The notes below the pieces were generated by a model. That model ran no database searches and was not told where the DNA came from. It saw only the letters and a program-made list of their open reading frames with translations. A stretch of 64,000 bases of DNA from Pseudomonadota bacterium. GTDB lineage: Bacteria > Desulfobacterota > Desulfobacteria > Desulfobacterales > Desulfolunaceae. The stretch lies in NCBI GenBank assembly GCA_018818835.1, contig JAHIRD010000141.1, forward strand, positions 130,608-194,607. The letters run 5' to 3'. The translations under genes were made by a program, and so were the position numbers. Positions 6,387-19,695 of this stretch are shown here, in pieces (the first letter of the stretch is position 1; each line of letters opens with the position of its first letter).

Positions 6387-6568
6387 GATTGAGGTATGTT
6401 TACACATTACACCGGGTATCCTTCCTTTTTTTCATTCACCGAATACGGCGACACTCACCATTTAGGGTGGGATTTTTCGATTCAAATCAGACCATGAAAT
6501 GGAATGAATGGATAGAACTGTTTGTGAATTCAGTCTGTTCGCTTCACTTAATGGTGGTTGTTAATCCC

Positions 6569-6584
6569 TGGCATGACTCTTGAT
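6569..6584 (+). promoter_or_regulatory. candidate sigma-54 promoter for the indolepyruvate oxidoreductase gene
   Basis: TGGCAT-GACTC-TTGAT matches the -24/-12 consensus (TGGCAC-N5-TTGC) at most positions, with the GG and TTG elements correctly spaced. It lies about 120 bp before the coding start. It is weaker than the promoters at 12908 and 14511, and no matching palindrome was found upstream. Confidence 0.45.
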
Positions 6585-6704
6585 ATGATATTTGGCCAAC
6601 AGGCGCTATCACGGCTTTCCCTTACTATATAGTTAGAGGTAAGTCCAACGTCCTCGCATATTTGGTGATTGTCGGGGAGATCCATAACTCAATACAGGTA
6701 CTTA

Positions 6705-9206
6705 ATGATTATGAAAGAAAATAAGATAAGGAAACTTTGCAAGGAAGAAGCCGGTAAGGCCGTCGTCCTTCAGGGAAATATAGCATTTGCCGTTGGCTGT
6801 GTCCGGTCAGGCATTCACAGTGCGGAGGGATATCCGGGAACCCCCAGCACGGAAGTTATTGACCGGGGCCTTTCCCAGGTCCAGGATATGATTACTGTGG
6901 GCTGGTCAGTGAACGAAGCCGTGGCTGTGGGTGTGGGTTTGGGACATACTCTGGCCGGCAGGGATACGGTGGTCACCATGAAAATTCCCGGACTTTTCCA
7001 GGCTGGGGATCTGTTTACCAGCGCATCCTGCTACACCGATCCCCGGGGTGCTCTTGTTTACTATATCGCCAGTGATTTTACACCAAGCTCGACCCAGCAC
7101 CTGGTCGATCCACGCTATCTTTTCAAATCCTGTTTTATTCCTGTTTTTGAGCCCGGAAACCACCAGGAGATGCTGGAGGCAGCAGAAATCGGAGCTGATA
7201 TCAGCCGCCAATTCAAAACACCCCTGGCCATTCTGGCCTCAGGGGCCTTGTGCCATAGCGAAGGCCTGGTCCGGTTGAACCCCGTCAGCAAGCGCGAACC
7301 CCTGGTCATGGGCGAAGATCTGACCGTGTTTAACTCTCTGCCGGGAATCGCCCGTAAAAACTACGATATTATTCAGGCCGAACGCATGAAGGCCTTGACA
7401 GCAATGGTTGAGGCTTCACCGTTGAATAAAGTGATTAAAGGCAGCGGCAAGACCGGTGTCATTACCTATGGGGCCAATACGGCCTATGTACAGGAGGTCA
7501 AGGAGGCCTTCGGTGCAGATATGGATATTTTGTCTTTGGCCTTCACCAATCCCTTGCCCGTGGATGTGATCCGTCATTTCCATGCATCCATAAAGGGTGA
7601 TGTGTATGTGATCGAGGATGGGTACCATTTTGTTCAGGATGAAATCGAAAGACTGGGCCTGGAGGTTAAGGGCAAGGCGCTTTTCAGCAATCTGACCGAG
7701 TACACCCCGGCCCTCATTGCAGAGAAACTGGGGTATGAGGTACAGAAAAAAACATTGACCACCCAGCCGGTCAAACGTCCGCCCATGATCTGCGCGGGGT
7801 GTCCTTACCGGCTGTTTGCCGAAGTGGTTTACAAAATGCGGAAACGGGGAAAACTCGAAACAATTTTCGGTGATATCGGCTGCAACTCCTTATTATGCTT
7901 CCTGGGTGCCGTTGATACGGGCGTGGCCATGGGCGCCAGCGAAAGCAAACGCACGGGCTACGTGCTTTCCCGGCCGGATAAGGCGGATAAATGTATTTCC
8001 GTAATCGGAGACAGCACCGAGTGCCACAGCGGTATGGATGCCACCCGCAACACGGTTTTCCGCAACGTCCCCGGCCTTAAAATCGTCCTGGACAACTACT
8101 GGACTGCCATGACAGGTGGTCAGCCTGCCCCCACGTCACCCGTCAATCTGGCCGGTGAGCCTTGCGCTTACGATCTGGTCAAGGAACTGGACGCCACGGG
8201 AGCCAGAACGACGGTGGTCAGCGCCTATGAGCGAAAGGAGATCCAGAAAGCCATGAAGCAGGCCTTGGATGATGCGGCAAACGGCGTGTTTACCACATTG
8301 GTCATACGGGGCTGCTGCATCAAGAAAGTACCGCCTAAAGAAAAAGGGATCAGGCTTAAAGTCAATGCTGACCTATGTGACACATGCCATACCTGTCTGA
8401 TTTGTCCTGGGATTGAGGCCAAGCCCGGTGACGTCCCTTCCTTTAACAACCTCTGCAGCGGATGCGGCGGCCAGCATCAGGCCTGTTTGCAGATGTGCCC
8501 GTTCAATGCCATCGAGACCCTGGCCGAGGAGGACCGGATCCGAACCAGCGGCCCGACCTATGATGATCCGCCGGTCATCCCATCCATCTCTTTGGATCAC
8601 GTGGCCCTTCCCAAACAATTGATTCTGGCCATACGGGGCGTGGGCGGACAGGGCAACCTGTTTTTTGGCCGGGTGATGACGCAGCTGGCCTTTCTGGCCG
8701 GTTACGGAGAGAAGAACATCGTCAAAGGGGAAACCCACGGTATGGCACAGATGGGCGGGCCGGTGATCAGTACCTTTGCCTGTGGCTCTGTATTCAGTCC
8801 CGTGCTGATGCCGGGCAAGGCGGATTGCGTTATTGCCATGGAAGTAAGTGAAATGCTGCGACCGGGATTTCTTGAGTTGCTGAAACCGGGAGGCACCATC
8901 CTGACGTCCCGAACCATGGTTGTGCCCCAATCCATATCGGCTGGGGAGTATCCGGACCTTGATCAGATCAAAAAAGCGTCTGACGGATATAACCTGATCG
9001 AGGTCGATGTGCTGGATAAAGCGGTTGAGATTGGCGATGCCACCGGCAAGATTGCCAATGTGGTGATGATGGGTGCTTTGAGCAAAATCGCCCCCTTTGA
9101 TCTTATTCCGGAGGCCGTCTGGCTTAATGCCTTGAAAGATGTCACCCCTGCCCAGGCGTGGGGGGGCAATTACAGGGCATTTGTTGCCGGTCGCGGCTTA
9201 TTGTAA
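6705..9206 (+). CDS. indolepyruvate ferredoxin oxidoreductase, fused alpha and beta subunits
   Basis: An 833-residue fusion. The first about 620 residues match IorA: an N-terminal pyrimidine-binding domain (SAEGYPGTPSTEVID), a thiamine-diphosphate domain with GDIGCNSLL, GDSTECHSGMDATRN and LDNYWTAMTGGQPAPTS, then a cysteine-rich ferredoxin-like region (CDTCHTCLIC, CSGCGGQHQACLQMCPFNAIE) for two 4Fe-4S clusters. The last about 190 residues match IorB (RGVGGQGNLFFGR, KGETHGMAQMGGPV). The family oxidises aryl pyruvates to aryl-acetyl-CoA and CO2, reducing ferredoxin. The two parts are usually separate genes. ATG at 6705 or 6711 is preferred over an upstream TTG at 6669. The acyl-CoA synthetase next to it would conserve the thioester energy as ATP. 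Confidence 0.88.
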   Translation: MIMKENKIRKLCKEEAGKAVVLQGNIAFAVGCVRSGIHSAEGYPGTPSTEVIDRGLSQVQDMITVGWSVNEAVAVGVGLGHTLAGRDTVVTMKIPGLFQAGDLFTSASCYTDPRGALVYYIASDFTPSSTQHLVDPRYLFKSCFIPVFEPGNHQEMLEAAEIGADISRQFKTPLAILASGALCHSEGLVRLNPVSKREPLVMGEDLTVFNSLPGIARKNYDIIQAERMKALTAMVEASPLNKVIKGSGKTGVITYGANTAYVQEVKEAFGADMDILSLAFTNPLPVDVIRHFHASIKGDVYVIEDGYHFVQDEIERLGLEVKGKALFSNLTEYTPALIAEKLGYEVQKKTLTTQPVKRPPMICAGCPYRLFAEVVYKMRKRGKLETIFGDIGCNSLLCFLGAVDTGVAMGASESKRTGYVLSRPDKADKCISVIGDSTECHSGMDATRNTVFRNVPGLKIVLDNYWTAMTGGQPAPTSPVNLAGEPCAYDLVKELDATGARTTVVSAYERKEIQKAMKQALDDAANGVFTTLVIRGCCIKKVPPKEKGIRLKVNADLCDTCHTCLICPGIEAKPGDVPSFNNLCSGCGGQHQACLQMCPFNAIETLAEEDRIRTSGPTYDDPPVIPSISLDHVALPKQLILAIRGVGGQGNLFFGRVMTQLAFLAGYGEKNIVKGETHGMAQMGGPVISTFACGSVFSPVLMPGKADCVIAMEVSEMLRPGFLELLKPGGTILTSRTMVVPQSISAGEYPDLDQIKKASDGYNLIEVDVLDKAVEIGDATGKIANVVMMGALSKIAPFDLIPEAVWLNALKDVTPAQAWGGNYRAFVAGRGLL

Positions 9207-9278: not shown

Positions 9279-9309
9279 AAACATTCTGATAAAAATTTTG
9301 GGTCGTATC

Positions 9310-11415
9310 ATGACATCTCACATAAAGCAGATTCCCGCAAACAATCCTGTGTCGGCCAGGTACACAAAGCTTTTTTCCCCCGAATCCATCGCGGTGATCG
9401 GGGCAAGCAATGACCTCCTAAAGCCGGGTGGCCGGGTGACAAAAAATATCAAGGAAAACGGCTACACGGGCCTTTTGTGGGCCGTGAACCCCAAAGCCGA
9501 CTCGGTTTTGGGATTGCCCACCTATCCGACCATCGAGGCCTTGCCCAAGTCCCCGGACCTGGCCATCCTGGCCATTCCCTCAAAATTCGTGCTGCCCGCC
9601 TTGGAAGAGCTGGCCAACCGAAAGACCGGAGCCGTTATTGTACTGACCTCGGGATTCGGGGAAAAAGACGAGGCGGGAAAAAAGGTGGAACACAACATGC
9701 TGAAGATTGCCAATGGGGCTGGCATGACACTGATCGGCCCCAACTGTTCCGGTTTCCTGACCCATGCCTACAAAGGCAAATTTGCCGGAATCATTCCCAC
9801 GCTGCCCGGCCAAGCCGTTGATTTTATCAGCGGTTCTGGGGCCACGGTGGATTATGTTATGGAACGGGCGTCCACCCGGGGTCTTTCATTTGGGACCGTC
9901 CTTAATCTGGGGAATTCGTTGCAGATGGGTGTGGAGGATCTGCTTGCTGTGCACGATGAAAACTATGGCCCGGACAGTGCTTCGATTCTGATGGTGTACA
10001 TGGAGGCCGTTAATAAACCTGCCAAACTGCTTCGGCACGCCCGCAGCCTGGTCAGCAAAGGATGCGTGCTTGTGGGCATCAAATCAGGTGCCACAGCCGC
10101 CGGAGAAAAGGCAGCGGCAAGCCATACCGGTGCCATGGCAACCAATGACACGGCCGTACAGGCCTTGTTTGAAAAAAGCGGCATTATTCGTGTCCAGGGA
10201 CGGGGCGATCTGATTAATGTGGCCTGTGTGCTGGCGGCAGCCAAGGGACGGATTGCAGGCAAGCGGATCTGCATTGTCACCGATGCCGGTGGCCCGGGGG
10301 TCATGCTCTCGGACGAATTGAACCGCCAGGGTTTGGAACTGCCGCAACTCCAAGAGCAAACCCGGGCCGAGTTATCAAAGATTTTACCTCCGGAAAGTTC
10401 AACACTCAATCCCATTGATGCTCTGCCCTCCCGTTCGGCCGAGCAAATCAAAGAGATCATCCGGGTGCTGAGAACGTTCGAAGGAGATCATATCGACGTG
10501 ATCACCGTTCTTTTGGGAGACTCTGGCCTGTCCGACAATGCCCCCATTTACCGGGAGATATCCAAGGTCATGCAAACCGGCCCCATACCCGTCATTCCCA
10601 TGTTCAGTTCGGTGGTCTCATCCCGGTTGAAAATCGCTGATTTCATTGATGAGGGGAATGTTTTCTTTCCGGATGAAGTGGAATTGGGACAAGCCCTGGG
10701 CAAGGTCATAAACTGGGTGCCGCCTGAAACGTGTTGTTCAATCCCGGAGGGATACGATCATGCCTTGGTTGCCGAGGCCTTGGAAGGGCATGAGGGAATC
10801 CTGGATCCCGAGGTCGTCAGTCAGGTTTTACGGGCAGCGGGTTTTCGGATAAGCGATCAGACCGAGGTTTTTGAGGAACAGCACCTTAGGGAAACCTGCC
10901 GGAAGATGGGTTATCCCTTGGTGATGAAAGTGATTGGCCCCTTGCACAAAACCGATGTGGGCGGTGTCAAACTGGACATAACCGATGATGACATGGCCCT
11001 GGCCGCCTGGAATGATCTACTGGGGATTGACGGCGCAAAAGGTGTTTTGCTCCAGCCTGTGATCAGAGGCCAGGAGGTCATCCTGGGTGCTTGCCGGGAA
11101 GGTGATTTCGGCCACCTGGTCATGTTCGGCCTGGGTGGAATTTATGCTGAGGTTTTAAAAGATGTCACCTTTGCACTGGCACCTCTGTCCAGGAACGAGA
11201 GCCTGAAGATGATTCGTGGCATTCAAAGTTATCCGGTCCTCAACGGGTTTCGTGGTGAGGTTGGAATGAATATGGATGTTCTGGCGGACACCATTCAGCG
11301 ATTGGGGCGTCTTGTCAGCGATTTTGGCCAAATCAGGGAAATCGATCTGAACCCCATCAAGGGATTTGATTCCGATCTGTTTGTTGTGGATGCTCGCATT
11401 ATCGTTCACCCATAA
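9310..11415 (+). CDS. ADP-forming acyl-CoA synthetase (acetate--CoA ligase family), fused alpha-beta
   Basis: A 701-residue protein with the NDP-forming acyl-CoA synthetase order: CoA-binding Rossmann domain (residues about 15-125, SIAVIGASNDLLKPGG), succinyl-CoA-ligase-like domains with the phospho-histidine motif ASHTGAMATND (about residue 275), and a C-terminal ATP-grasp domain (about 480-700, PLVMKVIGPLHKTDVGGV). The family turns acyl-CoA, ADP and phosphate into acid, CoA and ATP. Next to a CoA-forming keto-acid oxidoreductase this gives substrate-level phosphorylation from aryl or branched pyruvates, known from peptide-fermenting anaerobes. An in-frame TTG at 9298 is an alternative start. 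An MFS gene follows after 28 bp. Confidence 0.9.
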   Translation: MTSHIKQIPANNPVSARYTKLFSPESIAVIGASNDLLKPGGRVTKNIKENGYTGLLWAVNPKADSVLGLPTYPTIEALPKSPDLAILAIPSKFVLPALEELANRKTGAVIVLTSGFGEKDEAGKKVEHNMLKIANGAGMTLIGPNCSGFLTHAYKGKFAGIIPTLPGQAVDFISGSGATVDYVMERASTRGLSFGTVLNLGNSLQMGVEDLLAVHDENYGPDSASILMVYMEAVNKPAKLLRHARSLVSKGCVLVGIKSGATAAGEKAAASHTGAMATNDTAVQALFEKSGIIRVQGRGDLINVACVLAAAKGRIAGKRICIVTDAGGPGVMLSDELNRQGLELPQLQEQTRAELSKILPPESSTLNPIDALPSRSAEQIKEIIRVLRTFEGDHIDVITVLLGDSGLSDNAPIYREISKVMQTGPIPVIPMFSSVVSSRLKIADFIDEGNVFFPDEVELGQALGKVINWVPPETCCSIPEGYDHALVAEALEGHEGILDPEVVSQVLRAAGFRISDQTEVFEEQHLRETCRKMGYPLVMKVIGPLHKTDVGGVKLDITDDDMALAAWNDLLGIDGAKGVLLQPVIRGQEVILGACREGDFGHLVMFGLGGIYAEVLKDVTFALAPLSRNESLKMIRGIQSYPVLNGFRGEVGMNMDVLADTIQRLGRLVSDFGQIREIDLNPIKGFDSDLFVVDARIIVHP

Positions 11416-11443: not shown

Positions 11444-12760
11444 ATGTCAGATCATGCCCCACACCCCTTGTTCAGATATCGCTGGTTGATTTTTTCCGTA
11501 TTGGCTCTGGCCTATTTCTTTGTTTATTTTCACCGCCTGTCCCTTTCTGTTGTGGCTGACACCCTGGTGGACGATTTTAACACCACCGCCGGTACCATGG
11601 GCCTGTTGGGGTCCATTTATTTTTATTGTTATGCGGCCATGCAGCTGCCTGCGGGGTTGTTGTCGGATTCGGTGGGGCCCAGGCGAACCGTGACCTTCTT
11701 TTTGATAGCAGGTGCCGTGGGAAGCATTCTTTTCGGTCTGGCACCCACCATTGAAATAGCCTTTGTGGGGCGCATCCTGGTGGGGTTGGGCGTTTCAATG
11801 GTTTTCATCCCCACCATGAAAATTCTCTCACAGTGGTTTTATCCCCATGAGTTCGCCACCATGACCGGCATCCTGAACGCTGTGGGCGGGGTGGGGGTCC
11901 TGGCAGCCACCTGGCTTCTGGCGATCATGACCGGCTCTTTTGGCTGGCGTTTGTCATTTGAATTGATCGGCGGATGTACGTTTGTTCTTGTTTTCCTCCT
12001 TTGGGTTATCGTCAGGGACCGGCCCCAGGACAACGGATGGCCTTCCATAGAGGATCTGGACAATAGAGCCGGGTCGGTTGACTTGTCCGTTCAGACCATC
12101 GGTCTTTGGGCCGGGCTGAAAAAGGTGTTCAGCCATCCCCGTTTCTGGCCCTTGGCCTTGTGGTTCTTTTTTGATAACGGAATTTTCTTCGGATTTGGAG
12201 GCTTGTGGGGAGGACCCTATCTGATGCATGTGTATGGGCTGTCCCGGAATACCGCGGGTTCCGTCTTGAGCATGATTGCCTGGGGCATGATTTTCGGCAG
12301 CCCGCTCATGGGCTTTTTTTCAGATCGTGTGGTCAAGAGCCGTAAAATTCCCATTGTCATGTGCTCAACCCTACTGGTCCTTCTGATAACAGGTCTTTAC
12401 CTCTGCCCCACCGGCCTGCCACTTCCCCTGTTGTATGTGGTTTTCTTTGTGTTTGCCGTGTGTGCGGCAGCCATTGTGGCCATCGGGTTTACTTCAGCCA
12501 AGGAATTGTTTCCGGTGAACATGGCCGGGACCAGCGTGGGTATGGTCAATCTGTTCCCGTTTATAGGCGGTGCGGTTTACATGCCCCTGTTGGGAGCCTT
12601 GCTTGATGCCTACCCGGCTTCGCCGTCCGGTGTTTATTCAACCGAAGGGTATACCCGAATGCTGCTTGTGCTGTTGATTTCAGCCCTGATCGCTCTGGGG
12701 TGCGCCTTGATGATTAAAGAGACCCATATCCGCCGTCAGTCCAGCCCGGGCAGAGGATAG
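11444..12760 (+). CDS. MFS transporter
   Basis: A 438-residue protein with about 12 membrane segments. The loop 2-3 signature appears as GLLSDSVGPRRT and its second-half counterpart as GFFSDRVVKSRK. The opening, RYRWLIFSVLALAYFFVYFHR, resembles organic-anion MFS members. It follows the acyl-CoA synthetase by 28 bp with GAGG before the ATG, so it probably belongs to that transcript. The substrate is unknown; context suggests an aromatic or short-chain organic acid taken up or exported for the surrounding pathway (inference). Confidence 0.88.
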   Translation: MSDHAPHPLFRYRWLIFSVLALAYFFVYFHRLSLSVVADTLVDDFNTTAGTMGLLGSIYFYCYAAMQLPAGLLSDSVGPRRTVTFFLIAGAVGSILFGLAPTIEIAFVGRILVGLGVSMVFIPTMKILSQWFYPHEFATMTGILNAVGGVGVLAATWLLAIMTGSFGWRLSFELIGGCTFVLVFLLWVIVRDRPQDNGWPSIEDLDNRAGSVDLSVQTIGLWAGLKKVFSHPRFWPLALWFFFDNGIFFGFGGLWGGPYLMHVYGLSRNTAGSVLSMIAWGMIFGSPLMGFFSDRVVKSRKIPIVMCSTLLVLLITGLYLCPTGLPLPLLYVVFFVFAVCAAAIVAIGFTSAKELFPVNMAGTSVGMVNLFPFIGGAVYMPLLGALLDAYPASPSGVYSTEGYTRMLLVLLISALIALGCALMIKETHIRRQSSPGRG

Positions 12761-12775
12761 AACCATCCGGCCCAT

Positions 12776-12811
12776 CCCGCCTTATGTGGTGTATCCCGCC
12801 GCATAAGGCGG
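12776..12811. promoter_or_regulatory. 36-bp palindromic element, candidate enhancer site A
   Basis: Arms CCGCCTTATG (12777-12786) and CATAAGGCGG (12802-12811) are exact complements. The 36-mer matches the element at 14387-14422 at 30 of 36 positions. It ends 96 bp before the -24 box at 12908, the usual distance for a sigma-54 activator site. It also follows the first MFS gene and could be a structured 3' repeat. Confidence 0.55.
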
Positions 12812-12907
12812 TTCCAACCCTTCCGCACGGTCTTTTATCCTGCTTAAAATTATTTTATTATAAATAATATCAATTAGATAGTTTGCAATAGGTCAGGCAA
12901 AAAAACC

Positions 12908-12923
12908 TGGCACCTTTTTTGTA
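12908..12923 (+). promoter_or_regulatory. sigma-54 promoter of the second MFS gene
   Basis: TGGCAC-CTTTT-TTGTA matches the -24/-12 consensus with correct spacing; only the C of the -12 GC is replaced. It lies about 100 bp before the ATG at 13025. The same sequence (TGGCACCTTTTTTGT) recurs at 14511. Confidence 0.7.
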
Positions 12924-13024
12924 AATCATGAAGGTTATATCCAAGTTAAAAAAAATTAACACTGTTAAGCGAGGGGTACTTACTCAGGGGTAAATCATAA
13001 AACAGAAATAAAAGGTGATGTCTT

Positions 13025-14281
13025 ATGGAAAATGAAAATGGCTATCCAGGTACGCGATGGTTGATGCTTGCCGCTGTTGCGGTGGGCCAGGTTATGATTG
13101 GTACCACATTGATCTGTTATGCTCCTATTCTGGGGATCATTGCCGGGGATATCGGGGTATCTGTGGGTGAAATTTCGGCCGCAGCCATGGGTACCATCAT
13201 TATGGCGGCGGCGATTTCGTCCATTCTGTCCGGACCCATCCTGGACAAATTCGGGGTGGCCCGGGTCATTACCTTGGGTGCACTGATCACCACCATGGGT
13301 GTGCTGCTGGCACCGGTTTTTGATAACAGCCTCAGGGAAATCATTCTTGTCCGGCTCATTATGGGCATGGGGTGGGGACCGGTCACCGCCTGCACGTCCA
13401 CGGTGGCGGCACGCTGGTTTCCTGTGCATCAGCGAGGTATTGTGGCGGGTATGGTGGGTGCGGGAATTTCCCTGGGAATTATCCTCGGCTTCATCCTCAC
13501 GCCGGCCTTCATGGATGCCATGGGGCATTGGAGCTTGGCTATCCGCAGCCTCGTTGTCATTCCCGGCATCGCACTGATTCTGGCCTTTGCCACGAATTTT
13601 TTGACCGAACCCGAGATCCACGAGACAGTCACCGCCGAATACGATAGCCATAAAATCAGCAGTGATGTTGCCCTTGCGTTTAAATCCCTGCCCACATATG
13701 TCGGGATCCTGTGCATGTTTTTATTCACCTGGTATATGAACGCATTTAACGATCTGACTCCCGGTTTTATTGCCATTGAACCGCCCACGGGCTTGGGCAT
13801 GGGCCCGGCAGTGGCCGGACATTTCATGTCTGCGGTCCAGGTGGGCATGTTGCTGGGGTCTGCAGCTTCAGGCTTTATTCTAATGAAAATTTTCAAGGGT
13901 CGGATCAAACCGGTTTTGATCACAGGGTTCCTTTTCTCAGGGGTCTTTATGTTTGCCGTTAAATTTCCCCTTGTCAATTCCGCGCCTCCCTTGCTCACTG
14001 CAAGTCTGTTCCTGGCAGGTTTTTTTGAAGCCTTTATCATTCCCATGGTGGCAACGTTCATTGCAACCAATTATCCGTCCACCATTATGGGGCGTATTTA
14101 CGGAACGACGTTCGGTATCAGCATTTTCGGCGGTGCCATAGGCGTTTTTGTGGGTTCCACCTTTTTGCATATGACCGGAACATATATGATTTCGATCACC
14201 ATGGTCGGTGTCGTGGCCTTGCTGGGCATGGTTGCTTCCTTTGGAATAAATCCGCCCAAGGTATTTACTCATATCGATTAA
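13025..14281 (+). CDS. MFS transporter
   Basis: A 418-residue, 12-segment major facilitator protein. The first-half signature region is SGPILDKFGVARV. It resembles the preceding transporter only at fold level, so this is not a simple tandem copy. AAAGGTGATG lies upstream of the ATG. It has its own sigma-54 promoter and lies between the two matched palindromes, so it is likely induced with the DAPG-hydrolase-like operon. The substrate is not readable from sequence; a pathway substrate or product is the natural guess. Confidence 0.88.
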   Translation: MENENGYPGTRWLMLAAVAVGQVMIGTTLICYAPILGIIAGDIGVSVGEISAAAMGTIIMAAAISSILSGPILDKFGVARVITLGALITTMGVLLAPVFDNSLREIILVRLIMGMGWGPVTACTSTVAARWFPVHQRGIVAGMVGAGISLGIILGFILTPAFMDAMGHWSLAIRSLVVIPGIALILAFATNFLTEPEIHETVTAEYDSHKISSDVALAFKSLPTYVGILCMFLFTWYMNAFNDLTPGFIAIEPPTGLGMGPAVAGHFMSAVQVGMLLGSAASGFILMKIFKGRIKPVLITGFLFSGVFMFAVKFPLVNSAPPLLTASLFLAGFFEAFIIPMVATFIATNYPSTIMGRIYGTTFGISIFGGAIGVFVGSTFLHMTGTYMISITMVGVVALLGMVASFGINPPKVFTHID

Positions 14282-14386
14282 CACCCGGAATTTTAGAAAA
14301 ACCTATGGGGGTTCATTGGGTAAATCAAAACGATTACCTGTGTATGAAAACGGACCCAGGGCAGGGGATAGACATGTGCGTCATAT

Positions 14387-14423
14387 CCCGCCATATGTGG
14401 TGGATATCACCGCATATGGCGGG
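14387..14423. promoter_or_regulatory. 36/37-bp palindromic element, candidate enhancer site B
   Basis: Arms CCCGCCATATG (14387-14397) and CATATGGCGGG (14413-14423) are exact 11-bp complements, with a further near-palindromic centre GGTG-GATATC-ACC. It is the twin of the element at 12776 and ends 87 bp before the -24 box at 14511. Confidence 0.6.
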
Positions 14424-14510
14424 GCACTGAGGTGTCCTGGTATTGGAAACACACAGGGTATATTAAACAGAAACAGGGGGTTAAATCTATCTGGGCCGGA
14501 AAGGAGAAGC

Positions 14511-14526
14511 TGGCACCTTTTTTGTT
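14511..14526 (+). promoter_or_regulatory. sigma-54 promoter of the DAPG-hydrolase-like operon
   Basis: TGGCAC-CTTTT-TTGTT fits the -24/-12 pattern and is the same as the promoter at 12908 over 15 bases. It reads into the nitroreductase remnant and then the gene at 14798. Confidence 0.7.
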
Positions 14527-14550: not shown

Positions 14551-14730
14551 CCATGCATCATAAGTTCGGCAGGCTTTCTGTTTGCCTCGGCCAAGGGCCA
14601 GGCCATGAAAAAAGAGCTGGGGATTCCCCAAGGGTTTGAACACATTTTTTCCGTGGCCCTGGGCTATATCGCATCTGAGAAACCCGTGACACCGCCAAGG
14701 AACCGGGAAGTATTCAGCTATATCAAATAA
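14551..14730 (+). pseudogene. C-terminal remnant of a nitroreductase-family protein
   Basis: The frame ending in TAA at 14728 reads AGFLFASAKGQAMKKELG, then IPQGFEHIFSVALGYIASEK and PVTPPRNREVF. This is the pattern of nitroreductase C-termini (ALGIPEG, then ALGYP, then K-PPR). The frame is closed upstream by TAG at 14548 and has no start codon with a binding site, so only about 60 of about 180 residues remain. It probably marks a deletion inside the island, since the sigma-54 promoter now sits directly before the remnant. Translation from the internal ATG is possible but would give a fragment. Confidence 0.6.
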
Positions 14731-14797: not shown

Positions 14798-15418
14798 ATG
14801 AATTTTTCAGTAACCCAAGACACCCTTGGGACGCACCTGGAGTGGACACTTGAAGGTGTCAACGCCCACATGGTGGACTGGTTCTGGTCCAATATGGAAA
14901 AAGGCTTCATCTTATGGCATCCGGCCCAGCATGAAGCCCTGGAGTGGGCCGTACCCCCGAAGAACGGCAACCCCATGGGCGCAATTCACATTGCCCCCCA
15001 GACATGGAATGACGGAAGACGCCAGAATCTTTACATCCGCTTTGAAGCACTGGAGGATGTTCCTGAAGAAATCCGGGATTACATCATCTATGAGCACGTG
15101 ATTATTGTAGCCGGTCTCGGGCTGGGTAAAGAGAGCCTTGTCACCCCGGATCCCATGGGCTTTCGCCTCCATCAATGGGAACGAAGGGACTATGGGATTA
15201 TCGGAAAGTCATCTGCCATAGGCACCCGGAAAAAAGAAACGCCGGAAGAGGGCCGGGTCTGGTCCGAACATTGTGCCGAAGAAATAGGCAACTGGGAAGT
15301 TTTCCTGCCCCGGTTGTACACCTTGTACAAGGTCGTGAAATGCCCTACGCGCAACCCTTTCGCTGATTTTTCCGTCGAAGGTAAAGGGCGTAATGCCAGG
15401 TATGCGTTCATCAAATAG
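14798..15418 (+). CDS. DAPG/phloretin-hydrolase-like protein (PhlG family)
   Basis: A 206-residue soluble protein. Family-like features are MVDWFWSNMEKGFILWHPAQH (residues 25-45) and SEHCAEEIGNWEVFLPRLY (156-174). The pattern resembles the zinc hydrolases PhlG and Phy, which split a carbon-carbon bond next to a phenolic ring in diacetylphloroglucinol or phloretin and release an acid. H41, H45, E99/H100, H158 and E161/E162 are candidate metal ligands. It is shorter than PhlG (about 290 residues), so the true substrate is open. TTGGAGT precedes the ATG. The EthD-like gene follows after 46 bp. Confidence 0.6.
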   Translation: MNFSVTQDTLGTHLEWTLEGVNAHMVDWFWSNMEKGFILWHPAQHEALEWAVPPKNGNPMGAIHIAPQTWNDGRRQNLYIRFEALEDVPEEIRDYIIYEHVIIVAGLGLGKESLVTPDPMGFRLHQWERRDYGIIGKSSAIGTRKKETPEEGRVWSEHCAEEIGNWEVFLPRLYTLYKVVKCPTRNPFADFSVEGKGRNARYAFIK

Positions 15419-15464: not shown

Positions 15465-16256
15465 ATGATTAGAAGTTATCTGATTTTAAATCTGACAAGC
15501 TGGGATTATCTGCCATTGATGGACCGGTGGCTTTACAAAGACCATGCCATGGAAACCATGAACCAGGTCGGGCCAATATTGAGGCGTTATGCCACCTATC
15601 GTTCCATTCCCGAGCCAGGGGGGGCCTTTGACTATGGCTATTACAACTGGCGTATGACCGAGCACTGGTGGACAGAAAGTCCATTCCGGAAAGGCGTTAT
15701 GGGACATGGCAGCGCCATGTCGGAAGTCTGGCCGGAAAACTATCAAAAGGCCCTGGGCATCCCCGAGGGCGCGGGGCAGCGCGACCGCAAGTGGGAGGGC
15801 AAGGCGCCGACCTTTATCTTTGTCCCCTGCCGTCCCACTGAAGATTTTCTGGGCAGCAAGCTGACCATCAATGACGGAACCATCATCCGCTGGATCACGG
15901 TGTTCAAATACCCCGAGGGTGTTTCCTGTGATGAGGGCGATGCCTGGTACATCAATGTCCATGCACCTGAAGTGATAAAACAACCCGGATTGAAACGGTT
16001 TTTCAGCTTCGGTGCGGTGGACCCCAGTTCCAGGGTCGGGCCGTTTATGCGCGTATCCGAATTATGGTATGAGAACAACTCCGCATGGCGTAAAGCGGTT
16101 ATCGAAGAACCTCCGGCCTATACCAAGCCTGCATGGGCCACCTTTGATCAGTATCCTTTTTTGAAACCCGATGTCGATTTTATCAGTACCTTTACCCTTG
16201 AGCGGCCGGAATGCGATTTTCTCCGGGATTACCGGGGGTATAATGTCACGGCGTGA
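15465..16256 (+). CDS. EthD-like protein with two dimeric alpha/beta-barrel repeats
   Basis: A 263-residue soluble protein. Two halves look alike: residues about 1-75 contain RWLYKDHAMETMNQVGPILRRY followed by YNWRMTEHWW, and residues about 165-225 contain WYINVHAPEVIKQPGLKRFF followed by FMRVSELWYEN. The histidine followed by a proline- or glycine-marked helix is typical of EthD and related dimeric ferredoxin-like folds, which act on hydrophobic or aromatic compounds. The start at 15465 has GAGAGGAG upstream; a frame from 15393 would overlap the previous gene without a binding site. Function is not established; co-location suggests the same substrate as the PhlG-like protein. Confidence 0.55.
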   Translation: MIRSYLILNLTSWDYLPLMDRWLYKDHAMETMNQVGPILRRYATYRSIPEPGGAFDYGYYNWRMTEHWWTESPFRKGVMGHGSAMSEVWPENYQKALGIPEGAGQRDRKWEGKAPTFIFVPCRPTEDFLGSKLTINDGTIIRWITVFKYPEGVSCDEGDAWYINVHAPEVIKQPGLKRFFSFGAVDPSSRVGPFMRVSELWYENNSAWRKAVIEEPPAYTKPAWATFDQYPFLKPDVDFISTFTLERPECDFLRDYRGYNVTA

Positions 16257-16392: not shown

Positions 16393-17358
16393 ATGAAAGT
16401 TCTGGGACTGACTTGCGGCCGGAAGATGAGCAATACTGAAATCGTTGTCAAAGAGGCGCTTATGGGTGCCGAGGAGATGGGGGCTTCGGTGGAAATCGTC
16501 CGTCTGATGGATCTTGACATCAAACCCTGCACGGGCTGCAATGCCTGCGTGATTGACCTTTTTGAAAAGGGGGGTTCCGGAGACTGCGTCATTAAAAACG
16601 ATGATTTCAAATTTATTGACGATAAGATTCTTGATTGTGACGGCATCATTGTGGGAACCCCCATTTATGAGAAGACCCCCCAGGGGCTTTTGAAATGCCT
16701 CAATGATCGGATGGGGCCAAGTCACGACCTGGCCTTTCGGATGATTGCCAAAAAAATTCGAGCAGAAAAAGGCATTACCAAAGGGAAGGGGCCGGACGAG
16801 CGTTCATTTAAACCCCATGTGGCATCCCTTTTTGCAGTGGGGGGATCTGATTGGACCACCCTGGCCCTGCCTTTGCTCCAGATTTTTGCACTGCCCATGA
16901 ACATGACGGTGGTGGACCAGCAGCTTTTCAACTGGACCGCCTTGCCGTCCACGGTGGTGTTAAAGGATGAGATGCTTAAAAGGGCGCGTCGCTCAGGACG
17001 CCATGTGGCAGAGACCCTTAAAAAACCCATCGAGGAGGCTGCCTATATCGGTCCCAAGGGCGTCTGCCCGGTGTGTCATTGTGATGTGATCGAACTGGGC
17101 AAAACAGGTGATAAGGCCGTTTGTGCGGTCTGCGGCGTTAAAGGGACCTTGAACACCACGGGGGCCGACTATGCCCTGGCCGTTACCGAGGACGATTGGG
17201 CCCATTCCCATGTCCTTCTGTCCGGGAAGTTCAAACACGGAGAAGAGCTAAAGACCAGGTCCCTGAAGCCAGACCCACGCATGAAGGAGATCCCCCTGTT
17301 GATTGAAAAATACAAATCGTATTTGACGTATTCAAGGCCGGAGACAGCTGTAAAATAG
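16393..17358 (+). CDS. iron-sulfur flavoprotein (flavodoxin-like NADPH-dependent FMN reductase family) with C-terminal zinc ribbon
   Basis: A 321-residue protein. Residues 1-190 form a flavodoxin-like fold (KVLGLTCGRKMSNTE, VGTPIYEKTPQG), with C46, C49, C52 and C65 in the compact cysteine motif (PCTGCNACV) that binds 4Fe-4S in archaeal-type iron-sulfur flavoproteins. A C-terminal CPVC...CAVC pair (about 221-243) looks like a rubredoxin or zinc-ribbon knuckle. Such proteins pass electrons from ferredoxin to small molecules. In this island it could reduce the aromatic substrate before or after C-C cleavage (inference). AAGGGGGT precedes the ATG. It is the last gene before the regulator. Confidence 0.82.
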   Translation: MKVLGLTCGRKMSNTEIVVKEALMGAEEMGASVEIVRLMDLDIKPCTGCNACVIDLFEKGGSGDCVIKNDDFKFIDDKILDCDGIIVGTPIYEKTPQGLLKCLNDRMGPSHDLAFRMIAKKIRAEKGITKGKGPDERSFKPHVASLFAVGGSDWTTLALPLLQIFALPMNMTVVDQQLFNWTALPSTVVLKDEMLKRARRSGRHVAETLKKPIEEAAYIGPKGVCPVCHCDVIELGKTGDKAVCAVCGVKGTLNTTGADYALAVTEDDWAHSHVLLSGKFKHGEELKTRSLKPDPRMKEIPLLIEKYKSYLTYSRPETAVK

Positions 17359-17562: not shown

Positions 17563-19695
17563 GTGAATCGTCCGGATATCATGAAAAATACCACAGATCA
17601 GAATCAAATGGCGGTCTTCCAGCAGTATATTTTTGATCTTTCCGCCGTGTTTATTGCTATCCCGGCAGATAATGTGCCCGCTGAAATCGATTTGCGACTC
17701 AGGGAAATTGCCCTGTTTTGGGGTTTTGATCAGGTTTTTCTCTGTAGGTTGACGGACAACGACAGCATATTGACCACCATTCACGCCTTCAATGCCCCGG
17801 GAGTAACCTCTGCCCCCAGCAAGACCAAAACCGCCACCTTGCCATGGTTGATAGAGGCCATTTATAATGGGCAAGCCATCACCTTGACCCATGTGCTGGA
17901 TGAACTCCCTGATGATGCCCGAATTGATCGGGATCTGGTTGAACGGCTTGGCATCAAGTCGGCCCTTATTCTGCCCTTTATTGTGGGAGGACAGGTTCAA
18001 GGCGGTCTTTTTTTCAACAGCGTTCGCAGACACCGGGAATGGCCGCCGGAACTGGTTAAGTCAATGGAGCATCTGGGCCAGATTCTGGCCGGAGCCCTGG
18101 AGCGGCTCAAAGCGTTTGACCGTCTGCAGTATGCCATGCGTTTTGATCGTCTTCTGTCTGAGATTTCAGCGACCTATATTGATCTTCCTGCCAGGGATAT
18201 TGTTCAGTATATCCAAAAGGATCTGGGGCGGCTGGGTTCATTTTTGAATGTTGAACGGTGCGTTTTTTATTTGGCGGGGAAAAAGGGGACGTTTCAGATC
18301 GATGACCTGTTCAACTGGTGGCACGAAGAAGATAGTGAAAATATCAAGAAGGTCCAGGCATGGATAAGAGCCAATCCCGGTTATATCCATACGCTTAAAT
18401 ATTTTTTTGATAAATGGAACCGGGGTGAAGTTGTTCAGTTTACGAGTCTGGAAGAGCTGCCACCGGAAGCGCTTGAATTGAAGCAGGTGCATCAGCGGTT
18501 TGGAACCCAATCGTGGCTCTCGGTGCCCATTTCAGTGGGGGGGCGAATCGTGGGTGCGCTGGTTATTGCAACCATTCGTTCCCAACGCGTCTGGCCCGAA
18601 GAGTTGATTCCCCGTATTCGTCTGTTTGGTGAAATTTTTGCCAATGCCATAAACCGGAAAGACCATGAAACCACCTTGCAAAATGCCTTTAATGAAATCA
18701 AACGATTAAAACGGCAAATCGAAGCTGATTATGTTTATCTGCGTGACGAATTGACACTGGAGCATAATTTCGAGGAAATTATCGGGAAAAGCGATGCCCT
18801 GAAAAACGTACTTTTCAAGGTCGAGCAAGTCGCACCCACCGATGCCAGCGTCTTAATCCTGGGAGAGACAGGAACCGGCAAGGAACTCATTGCAAGGGCC
18901 ATTCACCATGCCGGCAACCGCAGTGAACGCCCCTTGATCAAGGTGAACTGTGCCGCACTGCCCCCCAATCTGATCGAAAGCGAGTTGTTTGGTCATGAAA
19001 AAGGGGCCTTTACCGGGGCGGATAAACAACGCATCGGCAGATTCGAGCTGGCCCACGGCGCCTCATTGTTTCTGGATGAAATAGGGGAACTGCCCCTGGA
19101 ACTCCAGCCTAAATTGTTGCGTGTCCTTCAGGAAGGGGAGTTTGAACGGCTGGGCGGCAGCCATACCCACCGCGTGGATGTCCGTATTATTGCCGCCACC
19201 AACCGCAATCTGGAAAAGGAAGTGGAGGGGGGGCGGTTCCGAAGTGATCTGTGGTATCGTTTGAATTCCTTTCCCATTTCTATTCCTCCCCTGAGGGATC
19301 GTATGGACGATATCCCCTTGTTCGTGACCTATTTTATCAATCAGTACTGTGCTAAAATCGGAAAACGGTTTGATAAGATTCCAAGAAAGATCATCCAGGA
19401 TTTGACCGACTATTCATGGCCGGGAAATATTCGTGAGCTTGGCAATATCATTTCACAGGCTGTAATCATCAGTGAAGAAGGTAATCTTCAAATTTCCATT
19501 CCCAATTCCCCGAACCGACTCCATGCCGATAAAAAATCCTTCAAGGAGATGGAAAAAACATTTCTCCTTGGGGTTTTGGAAGACTCCGGCTGGAAAATTG
19601 AAGGCCGCATGGGCGCAGCGAAAAAGCTGGATCTCAAACCCAGCACATTGCGTAACAAAATGATAAAATTGGATATTAAGCGGCCGGATCGATAG
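17563..19695 (+). CDS. GAF-domain sigma-54-dependent transcriptional activator
   Basis: A 710-residue enhancer-binding protein. Two GAF-like sensor regions (about residues 20-190 and 205-370) are followed by a linker coiled coil, an AAA+ domain (about 400-640, [30 protein letters not shown]) and a Fis-type helix-turn-helix near the C-terminus ([20 protein letters not shown]). The GAFTGA loop is intact, so sigma-54 contact is expected. GAF inputs suggest it senses a small molecule, as in XylR/DmpR-type regulators. It lies next to a set of genes with sigma-54 promoters and twin palindromes, and is the obvious candidate activator. The start is uncertain: GTG at 17563 or ATG at 17581. Confidence 0.92.

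Follow-up and report, generated by a model that had tools for sequence, protein, structure and literature searches.

What purpose do two near-identical palindromes serve when each stands a short distance upstream of the same promoter-like motif? The question is raised by a 64,000-nt stretch of a Desulfobacterales genome (the window; contig JAHIRD010000141.1 of assembly GCA_018818835.1, positions 130,608 to 194,607 of the forward strand), in which a preliminary description had noted palindromes at 12776-12811 and 14387-14422, sigma-54 promoters behind both, and a gene for a GAF-type activator at 17563 as their natural partner. Our answer, to which we give a probability of roughly 0.88, is that the palindromes act as upstream activating sequences (UASs) of sigma-54 promoters and would define a dedicated regulon of the 17563 activator, a protein of the layout GAF-GAF-AAA-helix-turn-helix (HTH), for the uptake and degradation of an aromatic compound that may be flavonoid-like. 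Because the matrix, the promoter definition and the gap limits were set during the analysis, we claim no formal probability.

The two palindromes are identical at 30 of 36 positions and are both followed by the same sequence, TGGCACCTTTTTTGT, as had been described. The distance from element to promoter is 96 bp for the first, which was given correctly, and 88 bp for the second, for which 87 bp had been given. The palindromes are real, but their symmetric unit is best taken as 35 bp (16+3+16) rather than 36 bp, and their inner structure had been missed: each element, denoted A and B below, consists of two 16-bp dyads, CCRCCNTATRYGGYGG, with 3 bp between them, since each half is by itself an imperfect 16-bp dyad with 4 to 7 of 8 pairs. 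The long arms measure 13 nt with 92% complementarity in the first palindrome and 16 nt with 94% in the second. In the window and 40 other stretches of the same genome (853,445 bases), stems with at least 13 Watson–Crick pairs occur 24 times, and two of these are A and B. Moreover, exact matches to the half-site CCGCCNTATGNGGNG in the whole 6.75-Mb genome are confined to these two elements. With at most one mismatch, the half-site search gave 13 forward and 8 reverse matches in the whole genome, i.e. the level of the reversed control (11 and 20), and among the loci obtained in this way a new element was present in L019 only.

In the 389 genomes of the class, the palindrome at no more than 3 mismatches has one foreign match, in genome G117, and a relaxed pattern applied to 76 relatives of G117 found matches in three genomes, namely G117, G033 and G013. 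The G013 match (contig C976, L172 9609-9721) consists of tandem copies of a near-palindromic 16-mer, of the CCGCCGTACATGGTGG type, and was dropped from the site counts. G117 and G033 belong to two other families of the order. In G117, 26 bp separate the element (L065:9782-9816) from the end of a preceding gene for a homologous activator, whose sequence, including the HTH, is 46% identical to that of the window activator over 541 aa. On its other side, TGGCCCACAACTTGC follows at a distance of 99 bp, ahead of a small gene that encodes an ABM domain. The first G033 copy lies 54 bp after an activator gene, with a gap of 96 bp to its promoter-like motif and an AMP-binding protein encoded in the next long frame; among the ten activators found, this one has the best BLAST score to the window activator (50% over 521 aa). 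The second G033 copy, on another contig, has a gap of 95 bp and stands before a small frame, ABM-like by eye, and a thiolase. The pairing of activator and element therefore recurs in both genomes, with two of the three foreign copies adjoining genes of activator homologues, and this supports the 17563 protein as the probable partner, as had been proposed from the window.

A matrix built from five sites (A, B, the one of G117 and the two of G033) was used to scan 2,347,451 bases of the own genome, i.e. 122 loci including the window, overlaps counted, or about a third of the genome. Above 14 bits there were six places; four of them are A, B and two further elements, and the other two (16.5 and 16.2 bits) have no promoter-like motif at gaps of 80-109. 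One of the new elements, F (TCACCGAATACGGCGACACTCACCATTTAGGGTGG), is a third site in the window, at 6436-6470, which had been missed beside the two correctly recognized ones; it precedes the genes of a ferredoxin oxidoreductase, an acyl-CoA synthetase and a first major facilitator superfamily (MFS) transporter. The other (37.5 bits), at a locus that came from the half-site search, is on contig C306, 97 bp before TGGCATCTTTTTTGTTATAT, which is nearly identical to promoter 2, and the gene behind it encodes a Phenol_MetA_deg protein (Pfam, 1.6e-39). When only the foreign sites were used for the matrix, A, B and F still ranked at 28.9, 29.6 and 25.0 bits, and the only other match above 15 bits in 864,446 bases was a half-shifted overlap of A. 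The search for more copies before -24/-12 promoters, suggested in the preliminary description, thus added two sites in the own genome and three in two other genomes. The four own copies lie 98 (F), 96 (A), 88 (B) and 97 bp (C306) from a -24/-12-like motif, and the gaps of all seven elements range from 88 to 99 bp, within the about 80-200 bp expected of sigma-54 enhancers. From their 14 half-sites the consensus is C C R C C N T A T R Y G G Y G G, in which positions 2, 4 and 5 (C) and positions 12, 13 and 15 (G) are invariant in 14 of 14.

TGGCACNNNNNTTGY is matched 41 times in the genome, against 23 times for the reversed control, and only two of the 41, those behind A and B, read TGGCACCTTTTTTGT. 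The GG and the spacing are present at all seven elements, and the -12 position reads GC in two (G117 and the first G033 copy), GT in three and GA in two. With approximate scoring weights of our own for sigma-54, motifs scoring at least 15 have a density of 0.00084 per base per strand, so that about 0.8% of random places are expected to have one within any five specified gaps when both strands are counted. Gaps of 80-105 were searched in the letter-free scan, the relatives and the tally of 28 activators (see below), and gaps of 80-109 and up to 219 in the matrix scans.

Might the elements serve another activator of this genome, for example the paralogue encoded on contig C110? The sigma-54 activator domain has 48 matches in the genome, of which 44 have an E-value of 4e-42 or lower, and the C110 paralogue carries the same FhlA-type HTH. 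However, the gene of this GAF-type protein (L248 8578-10855) is followed by two double dyads of its own, in other letters of the GGTCGACATTTCGACC type (GGTCGAC), at gaps of 87 and 87 to two -24/-12-like motifs, whereas it is homologues of the 17563 activator that adjoin the CCRCC-type elements in G033 and G117. An assignment of A and B to such a second activator is thus very unlikely. HTH_8 was not reported at E 0.001 for the window activator itself, but its C-terminus can be aligned with homologues, including one that carries HTH_8. A search of genome contigs for relatives of its GAF half found none, with short exact peptide patterns that reach close relatives only; most loci chosen from GAF matches hold no activator by a text test, and 10 activators were found in 23 sources.

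The layout can also be recognized independently of its letters. Symmetry was scored at the above gaps before 757 -24/-12-like motifs in 21 loci, comprising the window, loci around matches to the GAF half or the palindrome, and C306. The mode of this score is 13, and 12 places reached at least 21: the seven elements, two places in G157, and three that are unclaimed (the G013 array, L182 and L176). The two double dyads of G157 each follow an activator gene, at gaps of 98 and 97, and G161 has a related element with a spacer of 2, a gap of 96 and different letters directly after its activator. Over 12 sites (the seven elements and those of G157, G161 and C110) every gap is either 87-88 or 95-99, two ranges that differ by about one helical turn. 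As a side observation, L182 2046-2193 (contig C190 of G061) holds a very symmetric double dyad, TGCCGAAATAGCGGCC..TGCCGATATTTCGGCA, at a gap of 98 to a poor -24/-12-like motif; L176 (G191) likewise combines a high score with a poor promoter motif, and neither was counted.

Could the palindromes instead function as RNA hairpins, i.e. as terminators or 3′-end stabilisers of the MFS genes, that stand before promoters by chance? MFS stop codons precede them by 16 and 106 bp; RNA folding gives perfect stems, G-U pairs included, for the two (-27.3 and -32.4 kcal/mol, z -6.8 and -5.1); and 12892-12911, just before the T-run of promoter 1, was listed as terminator-like. Nevertheless, no T-run follows A or B, whose tails are TTCCAACCC and CACTGAGG, and the long-axis mismatches on the sense strand of the seven elements are 8 G-U, 10 A-C and 7 other. 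Because these mismatches show no preference for G-U, RNA pairing is not the conserved property. The hairpin reading, which moreover leaves unexplained both the near-constant distance to the downstream -24/-12 motif and the inner dyad of each arm, was rejected as highly improbable in spite of the strong folds. That the elements are a dispersed repeat (like repetitive extragenic palindromes or bacterial interspersed mosaic elements, REP/BIME) or a leftover of a local duplication, with no role in regulation, as the position of A and B after MFS genes might suggest, has a negligible probability and was rejected: the many copies at unrelated 3′ ends that the preliminary description had named as contrary evidence were not found by half-site search or matrix scan, only four matrix-level copies with promoter-like motifs exist in 2.35 Mb of the own genome, no further exact half-site exists in the whole genome, the 96- and 88-bp stretches between element and promoter are dissimilar by eye with both ends alike, and the element precedes different genes in other genomes.

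Several observations nevertheless weigh against reading A, B and their relatives as UASs of the 17563 activator. No element above 14 bits precedes the activator gene itself, and none was found at the 28 chalcone-isomerase loci of other records (L137-L164), so that the regulation is not tied to these enzymes across phyla. Element F is clearly weaker (24.7 bits). The G013 array reaches 34.9 bits with neither an activator in view nor a good promoter, so that repeats can mislead the matrix, and outliers of the letter-free score occur at other places, L182 (26) and L176 (22). The loose -24/-12 consensus is no commoner in the window than expected by chance (67 matches versus 70.8), and the promoter call therefore rests on the repeated arrangement. 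At the -12 position, promoters 1 and 2 read GT rather than GC, and the motif behind F reads GA. Additional motifs can also be reached from some elements, at a gap of 148 from B and, on the other strand and with lower scores, at 106 and 148 from the G117 element.

The enhancer role put forward in the preliminary description is supported by what is directly observed, namely the copies, their near-constant spacing and the synteny with homologous activators, and from the biology of sigma-54 we infer how the UASs would work. The GAF domains would sense a small molecule, upon which the activator would assemble on the double dyad; two activator dimers most likely occupy one element, because it is a fused pair of 16-bp dyads. 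Through a short loop, of about 97 bp or shorter by one helical turn, the activator would then contact the sigma-54 polymerase at the -24/-12 site and drive ATP-dependent opening. The near-constant distance between element and promoter suggests a dependence on the face of the helix, for which it offers a direct test. The predicted targets are the ferredoxin-oxidoreductase, acyl-CoA synthetase and MFS 1 genes; the MFS 2 gene; the hydrolase-like, chalcone-isomerase-like and FMN-reductase genes; and the Phenol_MetA_deg gene on C306, whose product we take, from knowledge of the family, to be an outer-membrane channel. An aromatic compound is suggested by this set of two MFS transporters, a Phenol_MetA_deg protein, a chalcone-isomerase-like and a weakly 2,4-diacetylphloroglucinol (DAPG)-hydrolase-like protein, an FMN reductase, a ferredoxin oxidoreductase and an acyl-CoA synthetase; that it is flavonoid-like is a guess from the isomerase. 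The host is probably a sulfate reducer, judging by its placement in the Desulfobacterales alone. Environmental anaerobes carry dozens of sigma-54 activators, mostly with unknown targets, and here an activator, its enhancer, the promoter spacing and four groups of target genes can be assigned from sequence alone. The double-dyad layout with its near-fixed distance would provide a simple rule for finding the targets of related activators, a rule resting on few genomes.

How far does this layout extend among activators of the same type? When 28 activators were scanned within 1500 bp of their genes (a tally that omits the two G157 activators, whose sites come from the letter-free scan), four had a double dyad scoring 22-25 immediately behind their genes, and all four have the FhlA-type HTH. 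Among the 23 activators lacking this HTH the best score was 21, at a place where the motif was poor and lay on the opposite strand. A fifth protein with the FhlA-type HTH is the window activator; no such site stands beside its gene (score 16), and its elements stand before neighbouring genes. In the recognition helix, STLRN/H goes with CCRCC, STLRA/G with the G157 type, STLRF with CCACA and STLYS with GGTCGAC. We tentatively suggest, at somewhat less than even odds, that a group of GAF-AAA activators of Desulfobacterales with an FhlA-type HTH shares a distinct format of two fused 16-bp dyads (spacer 2-4 bp), placed in one of two helical registers at roughly 87 or 97 bp from the -24 position, the gene often being followed immediately by its own enhancer, and that the residue after STL/STLR in the recognition helix tracks the letters of the dyad. 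If true, activator and operator sequence could be read together, yielding a DNA-specificity code for a large and mostly orphan group of activators.

The coordinates of the window features are collected in the table. The genes at 9298 and 11444 presumably share an operon with that at 6669. In the leader of promoter 2, the 57-codon open stretch has no Pfam match and no other genome match at E 0.001; judged by its translation, it is probably a C-terminal remnant of a nitroreductase, and a different gene may have stood under promoter 2 in the past. Relatives of the 206-aa protein with 59-64% identity adjoin chalcone-isomerase-like genes in five distinct loci.

Table. Positions of the elements, promoter-like motifs and genes in the window
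Feature	Position	Strand	Details
Candidate enhancer element F (third window copy, weaker)	6436..6470	+	TCACCGAATACGGCGACACTCACCATTTAGGGTGG; matrix 24.7 bits, 25.0 with foreign-only matrix; gap 98
-24/-12-like motif TGGCATGACTCTTGA	6569..6583	+	98 bp after element F; 2 mismatches to loose consensus
Indolepyruvate ferredoxin oxidoreductase-like protein (845 aa), first gene behind F	6669..9206	+	POR and TPP domains; IOR_alpha 345 bits, below equivalog cut-off 651
ADP-forming acyl-CoA synthetase-like protein	9298..11415	+	ATP-grasp_5, Succ_CoA_lig, CoA_binding
MFS transporter 1	11444..12760	+	MFS_1 1.8e-57
Candidate enhancer element A (first palindrome)	12777..12811	+	gap 96 to promoter 1
-24/-12-like motif TGGCACCTTTTTTGT (promoter 1)	12908-12922	+	
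MFS transporter 2, behind promoter 1	13025..14281	+	MFS_1 3.6e-35
Candidate enhancer element B (second palindrome)	14388..14422	+	gap 88 to promoter 2
-24/-12-like motif TGGCACCTTTTTTGT (promoter 2)	14511-14525	+	
57-codon open stretch, no ATG near start, in leader of promoter 2	14557..14730	+	PDB 3pxv nitroreductase residues 137-183, E 0.042 (weak)
206-aa protein, possibly DAPG/phloretin-hydrolase-like	14798..15418	+	PF18089 E 0.0041, 17.1 bits, below cut-off 22.7
Bacterial chalcone-isomerase-like protein	15465..16256	+	Chalcone_N 1e-12; PDB 3zph E 5.7e-32, residues 2-259
NADPH-dependent FMN reductase-like protein	16393..17358	+	FMN_red 1.2e-15
Sigma-54 activator: GAF, GAF, AAA+ (GAFTGA), C-terminal HTH	17563..19695	+	Sigma54_activat (PF00158) 1.1e-72, GAF 6.6e-17, GAF_2

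The 28 loci with relatives of the chalcone isomerase in other records hold related gene sets in Acidobacteria, Gammaproteobacteria and Fusibacter. Chalcone-isomerase-like and hydrolase-like genes occur together in Fusibacter sp. 3D3 (L143), in a metagenome-assembled genome (MAG) of Acidobacteria (L137) and in two of Gammaproteobacteria (L138 and L150), with an FMN-reductase-like gene as well in L143 and L137. The isomerase from Acidobacteria is 71% identical to that of the window, which suggests gene transfer. On contig C306, a second acyl-CoA synthetase-like frame (L189 14294-16750; 818 aa by eye) is convergent to the Phenol_MetA_deg gene. Elsewhere in the genome a hairpin, GTTTCAATCCCAGGCGTTGCCTGGGATTGAAAC, occurs at three places with similar flanks (L120 10363-10395, L130 18437-18469 and, with 31 nt, L117 10080-10110), and is possibly CRISPR-related or a mobile repeat.

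Sets of activator, UAS and promoter are well known, and the closest comparison by architecture is FhlA, which shares with the window activator the GAF domains, the AAA+ domain with GAFTGA, the C-terminal HTH and a UAS upstream of a -24/-12 promoter. The targets here are unlike formate hydrogenlyase, and the best NCBIfam match of the window activator, the FhlA model (NF011958), gives 384 bits, below its equivalog cut-off of 830. According to the main text of a study of Clostridiales (PMC6615313), FhlA-like UASs consist of TGT and ACA with a 10-12-bp spacer, unlike the CCRCC/GGYGG of the window, and most UASs of that order lie 100-250 bp upstream, many being of TGT/ACA types like those of FhlA. 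In Desulfovibrio vulgaris Hildenborough, as far as the text of PMC4641369 goes, most sigma-54 regulons comprise one to four operons, and genes of one-component activators often adjoin their promoters, as in our system; the half-sites, in contrast, are yGTCA-N6-TGACr and TGT/ACA, and the distances vary, four exceeding 300 bp. The terms ‘tandem’ and ‘spacing’ are absent from that text, its motif figures and supplements lying outside the check, and a limited check of the literature, again outside motif figures and supplements, found no description of a fused double dyad with fixed spacing.

For the enzymes, the product of 15465-16256 aligns almost over its full length with PDB 3zph, which we take to be the chalcone isomerase of Eubacterium ramulus (PMC9694015), and a weakly DAPG-hydrolase-like protein appears to be encoded next to it in the window. 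Substrates may differ, because only 3 of the 28 relatives in other records are at least 56% identical. Regulation of anaerobic aromatic degradation has a parallel in EtpR of Aromatoleum aromaticum, a predicted sigma-54 activator that is described in the text of PMC4630880 as essential for anaerobic degradation of p-ethylphenol and p-hydroxyacetophenone; its host differs in being a denitrifying betaproteobacterium, and the terms ‘palindrom’, ‘upstream activating’ and ‘GAF’ do not occur in the text seen of that paper. DmpR, in the portion of PMC7264223 consulted, is likewise a one-component activator of aromatic catabolism with a palindromic UAS about 100-200 bp upstream. It differs in sensing through a V4R domain, to which the window activator, with its GAF domains, shows no match. 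With phenol, DmpR forms a dimer of dimers (same source), a possible analogue that would suit two adjacent dyads.

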